A stretch of 64,000 bases of DNA from Burkholderiaceae bacterium (GTDB lineage Bacteria; Pseudomonadota; Gammaproteobacteria; Burkholderiales; Burkholderiaceae_F): the NCBI GenBank assembly GCA_019236735.1, contig JAFAIM010000014.1, positions 1 to 64,000 of the forward strand, written 5' to 3'. Within the stretch, counting starts at the first letter, position 1. Each line of letters opens with the position of its first letter. Below the pieces are notes generated by a model that made no database searches, was not told the DNA's origin, and saw only the letters and a list, made by a program, of their open reading frames with translations. The position numbers and the translations under genes were made by a program. Of the stretch, positions 2,657 to 3,011 are shown one piece after another.

Positions 2657-2659
2657 GTG

Positions 2660-3011
2660 TGCGACCGGCGGGAATCGAACCCGCACACCCGAAGGTCAGG
2701 GATTTTCATCCGAGCTGCGGCTTTCGCCGCCGGGCCGGGGTGCGGATTCACACGCCCGCGTCCCCACGACCCGTTTGTCGGCTGGACTTTGCCTTGGCCA
2801 TCGCGTCGCCCGCATCGTCCGTCTAAGCGGGCGCTGCCTTAGGCCCCCGTCGTCAAGTCTCTGCACGTTCCCCGAATGGGGCTTCGCTCAGCGTCGCCTC
2901 GCGCTGCGCGCGCAGGGGGTTCGCTGACTTTGGCGGGAGTCATCCGGAAGCTTTCGCAGCCGGCGCTCAAATTTTCAAGTCCCTTGCGGCTACCAGTTAC
3001 GCCACGGTCGC
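2660..3011 (-). tRNA. tRNA-Leu(UAA) interrupted by a group I intron
   Basis: 5' exon GCGACCGTGGCGTAACTGGTAGCCGCAAGGGACTT; 3' exon AAAATCCCTGACCTTCGGGTGTGCGGGTTCGATTCCCGCCGGTCGCA; spliced anticodon loop CUUAAAA, 7-bp acceptor stem GCGACCG/CGGTCGC, variable arm ACCUUCGGGU, T-arm GCGGGTTCGATTCCCGC; CCA not encoded. Confidence 0.9.
2707..2976 (-). ncRNA. Group I self-splicing intron (270 nt), inserted between U34 and A35 of tRNA-Leu(UAA)
   Basis: Core GTGCAGAGACTTGACGACGGGGGCCTAAGGC ... TGGCCAAGGCAAAGTCCAGCC closely resembles the Azoarcus tRNA-Ile intron core; P1 CUU|GAAAAUUUGAG with a U.G pair at the 5' splice site; terminal omega-G before AAAATCCCT. Confidence 0.88.

Follow-up and report, generated by a model that had tools for sequence, protein, structure and literature searches.

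A tRNA-Leu(UAA) gene on the minus strand of the window, by which we mean the whole 64-kb stretch of betaproteobacterial DNA analyzed here, is split by a 270-nt insert with the anatomy of a group I intron. Our main reading, to which we assign a probability of roughly 0.93 from comparative sequence analysis, is that the insert is an autocatalytic group I intron which probably falls in the small tRNA subgroup IC3, that it sits in what is probably the bacterium's only tRNA-Leu(UAA) gene, and that it came from a pool of such introns in the Burkholderiales. The intron itself is real and well supported, and it is of a kind that is already known and fairly common in related bacteria. On this reading, the organism's tRNA-Leu(UAA), probably its only one, would depend on an RNA that must excise itself.

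Anatomy of the interrupted gene

The gene consists of three parts:

2977..3011, minus strand: tRNA-Leu(UAA) 5' exon, ending ...GGGACUU (C32 U33 U34); ARAGORN with introns allowed, joined exons
2707..2976, minus strand: group I intron, 270 nt, G first and omega-G last at 2707; RF00028, ARAGORN, covariance model, covariation
2660..2706, minus strand: tRNA-Leu(UAA) 3' exon, starting AAAAUCCC and ending at discriminator A73; ARAGORN

Read along the minus strand from 3011 to 2660, the locus comprises GCGACCGTGGCGTAACTGGTAGCCGCAAGGGACTT (5' exon), the 270-nt insert, which begins GAAAATTTGAG and ends CTCGGATG, and AAAATCCCTGACCTTCGGGTGTGCGGGTTCGATTCCCGCCGGTCGCA (3' exon). ARAGORN finds 0 tRNAs in the 64-kb window when introns are disallowed; when they are allowed, it calls a tRNA-Leu(TAA) whose 270-nt intron separates ...GACTT from AAAAT, and the joined exons by themselves are scored as a tRNA-Leu(TAA) of 83 bases. 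The insertion lies between U34 and A35, in the anticodon loop CUUAAAA of tRNA-Leu(UAA). The initial annotation had proposed that two halves 270 nt apart form a complete tRNA, split at U34/A35 in a proteobacterium, and both points are confirmed by these calls and by the presence of the same intron in a genus-mate classified within the Betaproteobacteria. The 3' CCA is not encoded, with CAC following A73 (window 2657-2660); CCA is encoded in the genus-mate gene and in most other tRNAs of the window genome. Neither a sigma-70-type promoter nor an intrinsic terminator was called near the tRNA gene.

Identification as a group I intron

The insert matches the Rfam model Intron_gpI (RF00028) at 2986-2838 on the minus strand, with 33.5 bits and E = 1e-6 in a search of a 701-nt stretch and E = 1.1e-6 when the whole genome is searched. 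This does not reach the RF00028 gathering score of 50 bits, a database inclusion rule rather than a biological feature, and the Rfam scan of the window at that score reported nothing for this reason; the empty result reflects a threshold and not an absence. A covariance model built from nine other genomes, with the window's genus left out to avoid circularity, gave a single match in the 64 kb, at 2942-2780 on the minus strand, with 118.3 bits and E = 6e-29. A chance match is excluded as an explanation of the intron. Standard tools, namely ARAGORN at its defaults and Rfam at the gathering score, miss tRNA and intron alike. In a tree of intron cores, the intron groups with tRNA introns of the Leu(UAA), Ser(UGA), and Arg(CCU) type, and it probably belongs to the small tRNA subgroup IC3.

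The following elements make up the predicted structure:

2966..2979, minus strand: P1, exon CUU (2979-2977) with intron GAG (2968-2966), U.G at the splice site; pairs kept in 6/6 relatives
2944..2965, minus strand: P2 hairpin with GAAA loop; hand-drawn structure over six homologues, sequence
2846..2937, minus strand: P3, 2937-2932 with 2851-2846, enclosing P4-P6 and the 5' strand of P7
2888..2927, minus strand: P4 (2927-2922 with 2893-2888) and P5 (2916-2897); six-homologue structure, 78-intron covariation
2865..2887, minus strand: P6 and P6a hairpin; six-homologue structure, 78-intron covariation
2785..2859, minus strand: P7, the guanosine-site helix, 2859-2855 GACUU with 2789-2785 AAGUC, crossing P3
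2796..2845, minus strand: P8 with enlarged loop; compensatory changes in 4/4 pairs (78 introns)
2710..2781, minus strand: P9 region, with a GAAA-loop hairpin at 2729-2718; six-homologue structure, sequence

Across six homologues, the hand-drawn P1-P9 structure with its P3/P7 crossing has 98.4% of cells paired and 8 pairs changed on both sides, and the pairing collapses on a one-column slide. The same core is apparent in an alignment of 78 introns, where P7, although left out of the alignment fitting, is paired in 99% of cells with compensatory changes in 3/5 pairs, its alternatives across introns including GACUU/AAGUC and GACUA/UAGUC. Compensatory changes are likewise seen in 4/6 pairs of P3, which has one C.A mismatch in the window's genus. 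In total, cells changed on both sides number 337 in the P3-P8 core of these introns, where shuffles average 99, a comparison that kinship inflates; the covariation score is 0.48 against 0.05-0.08 in slid controls, which have the same relatedness. The minimum-energy fold of the whole precursor beats shuffled sequences by a modest margin (z = -1.8), and the complete pseudoknotted core does not appear in it; single-sequence folding cannot represent a pseudoknot. By sequence, AAAA of the 3' exon is able to pair with the UUU before GAG, making this a P10 candidate. The group I identity proposed at the outset is thus borne out by the RF00028 match below cut-off, the genus-free model, and the covarying P3, P7, and P8, and the individual elements then named, P1 as CUU|GAAAAUUUGAG with a U.G pair at the splice site, a terminal G, and the core segments, all hold.

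Taken together with what is established about group I introns, this anatomy suggests a splicing pathway. The precursor tRNA would fold, and exogenous guanosine in P7 would attack the phosphate between U34 and the first intron G, where P1 has its U.G pair. The freed U34 would in turn attack after the terminal G, with the exons joining as CUUAAAA. The tRNA ends would then be matured, the CCA being supplied by the CCA-adding enzyme, as the gene does not encode it.

Probable use of the gene

Comparison with the genus-mate (genome G066), which carries the same intron at the same site, is informative on function. The exons differ at 1/82 sites, the 5' exon being identical and the one difference falling in the 3' exon, while the introns differ at 53/253 aligned sites and by 17 nt in length. 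Exons that are nearly unchanged around a diverged intron argue that the tRNA is under selection, and hence that it is very probably used and its intron spliced.

The initial annotation had raised the matter of an intact second tRNA-Leu(UAA) in the genome. None was found among the 38 tRNAs recovered from the window genome, a draft assembly in 95 contigs, and since the assembly is 95% complete such a gene could be missing from it. The joined-exon string GGACTTAAAATCC, which marks an uninterrupted anticodon arm, is found neither in the window genome nor in the sole sampled genus-mate; it is present in 56/65 other family genomes. The split gene is probably the sole tRNA-Leu(UAA) gene of the window bacterium. 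The draft state of the assembly, the missing CCA, and the mismatch in P3 could also fit a tRNA pseudogene whose intron is decaying and unspliced, with an unassembled intact copy covering the function. We regard this as very improbable, as the exons are almost constant beside an intron that has diverged by about one fifth, the core pairing is preserved, and the intact copy is absent from the genus-mate assembly too.

Distribution in relatives

Apart from the genus-mate, the intron was not found in the 65 other family genomes by BLAST or covariance model. BLAST matches in two of them, G010 and G019, proved to be unrelated sequence without tRNA exons. Further afield, the covariance model detects related introns in 61/399 sampled genomes of the order, and classification by exons places a Leu(UAA) intron at the same site, with the same P1, in 25/399, the window's genome included. 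Other hosts in the order are Leu(CAA), Ser(UGA), Arg(CCU), Ile(CAU) at two sites, Thr(UGU), and Asn(GUU). Covariance-model matches are present in 50/369 genomes of the wider class and 41/399 of the phylum, and Leu(UAA) is, as in the order, the commonest host among the loci classified, the weak class matches lying mostly outside the classification. Interrupted tRNA-Leu-TAA genes have already been published for Beggiatoaceae, in Thiomargarita and BOGUAY (PMC4853749). The earlier view that tRNA-Leu(UAA) introns are rare in proteobacteria therefore fails, since surveys of the order, class, and phylum find them repeatedly. Reviews greatly understate how common such introns are in Pseudomonadota.

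The surveys also brought other tRNA introns to light. Another group I intron of the window genome, 225 nt long and with an RF00028 score of 58 bits, splits a tRNA-Asn(GUU) gene at U35/U36, the only Asn(GUU) gene found in that genome; L116 and L117 are two more Asn(GUU) introns from the order. A separate type of intron, ~245-290 nt long, lies in tRNA-Ile(CAU) between U33 and C34, which is not the Azoarcus-type site, and several of the genes concerned are mislabeled by ARAGORN as Leu, Ser, or Val. Group I introns are further seen in tRNA-Thr(UGU) (L084, L091, L203), in tRNA-Leu(CAA) (L089, L095, L104, L122), and in an apparent tRNA-Arg(CCG) (L046). One 50-bit core match, at G242:C30:55428-55587 (L118), has no recognizable tRNA exons. 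The positions of the first two types are as follows:

G000:C36:9107-9405 (L001 1477-1776): tRNA-Asn(GUU) intron locus; RF00028
L087, L093, L099, L103, L105, L107-L114 and others: U33/C34 Ile(CAU) introns

Phylogeny and origin

To place the intron, we used quick trees of 118 core columns, with the exon-guided P1 and P2 left out. The window intron falls within seven betaproteobacterial Leu(UAA) introns (SH-aLRT 98), and this set is nested in 26 Leu, Ser, and Arg introns that are almost entirely betaproteobacterial (SH-aLRT 99). Cyanobacterial Leu introns form a separate set (SH-aLRT 97). The data reject one common origin for all Leu(UAA) introns, as forcing them into one clade gives p = 3.8e-5, and it follows that the Leu(UAA) site has been reached more than once or that introns have been exchanged; this rejection is strong but not clean, because the columns are few, the trees quick, and the groups were named after the first tree had been seen.

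Lateral transfer or transposition had been offered initially as the source of the intron. Within the order, insertion or transfer is supported by the comparative data, since the anticodon arm is uninterrupted in 56 of the 65 other family genomes and the intron is in none of the 65; on a tie to cyanobacteria, the test leans neither way. Direct lateral transfer of a cyanobacterial tRNA-Leu(UAA) intron, in which the shared site would mean shared descent, draws on an identical insertion site and a similar P1, and forcing the window clade together with the cyanobacterial Leu introns costs just 3.8 log-likelihood units over the 118 columns (AU p = 0.435). The placement of the window intron in the 26-row betaproteobacterial set, apart from the cyanobacterial one, tells against it, as does the rejection of one origin for all Leu(UAA) introns, with the caveat of few columns and post hoc groups, and we consider such a transfer unlikely.

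We give about even odds to a history in which small group I introns from a Burkholderiales pool have repeatedly colonized many tRNA anticodon loops (Leu UAA and CAA, Ser UGA, Arg CCU, Ile CAU at two sites, Thr UGU, and Asn GUU), passing from one site to another with the same short 5' exon for P1 to recognize, as with CUU in both Leu(UAA) and Ser(UGA). There would then have been several independent arrivals at the Leu(UAA) site, one of them in this genus. At four loci (L057, L058, L065, L184), a group I intron splits tRNA-Ser(UGA) at 34/35, where it follows CUU as the Leu(UAA) introns do. That the tRNA-Ser(UGA) introns lie near the betaproteobacterial Leu introns in the tree, and follow the same CUU, suggests movement between tRNA genes with a common P1 target. 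Close Leu(UAA) and Ser(UGA) introns with the same 5' exon letters make intron movement between genes testable.

The intron probably reached the genus from a pool of related introns circulating in the Burkholderiales, via homing or reverse splicing, and would now lack an endonuclease of its own. Pfam gave no match for the frames that overlap the insert, which leaves an endonuclease unsupported, in keeping with the initial expectation that the insert holds no homing endonuclease. A BLAST search with the intron gave no match among plasmids or phages, and thus no direct vehicle was found. A gammaproteobacterial tRNA-Leu(UAA) intron (L205:985-1755) has in its P6 region a 154-aa HNH-like frame on the opposite strand (1564-1100), which matches Pfam HNH_3 with E = 5e-4, below the Pfam cut-off. 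It is plausible that this intron shows a homing form of the family.

Comparison with known systems

Azoarcus-type tRNA-Ile(CAU) introns and proteobacterial tRNA-Arg(CCU) introns resemble the window intron in being small, in interrupting the anticodon loop, and in having GAAA loops in the P2 and P9 regions, and their P7 GACUA/UAGUC corresponds to GACUU/AAGUC in the window; they differ in the tRNA and in the insertion site. The interrupted tRNA-Leu-TAA genes of Beggiatoaceae are gammaproteobacterial, and their structure was not determined by the authors of that study. Cyanobacterial Leu(UAA) introns share with the window the tRNA, the site, and the same kind of core, but have different P7 and P3 sequences and lie on a separate branch. 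Nearest in the tree are introns of 216-262 nt from metagenome-assembled genomes (MAGs) of Rhodocyclaceae (L042), Aquitalea (L045), and Formivibrio (L047) and from the genus-mate, Betaproteobacteria BP_15 (L043), which have the same tRNA, U34/A35 site, P1, and core. Compared with these, the window copy has longer P8 and P9 elements and an exon 3' end without an encoded CCA.
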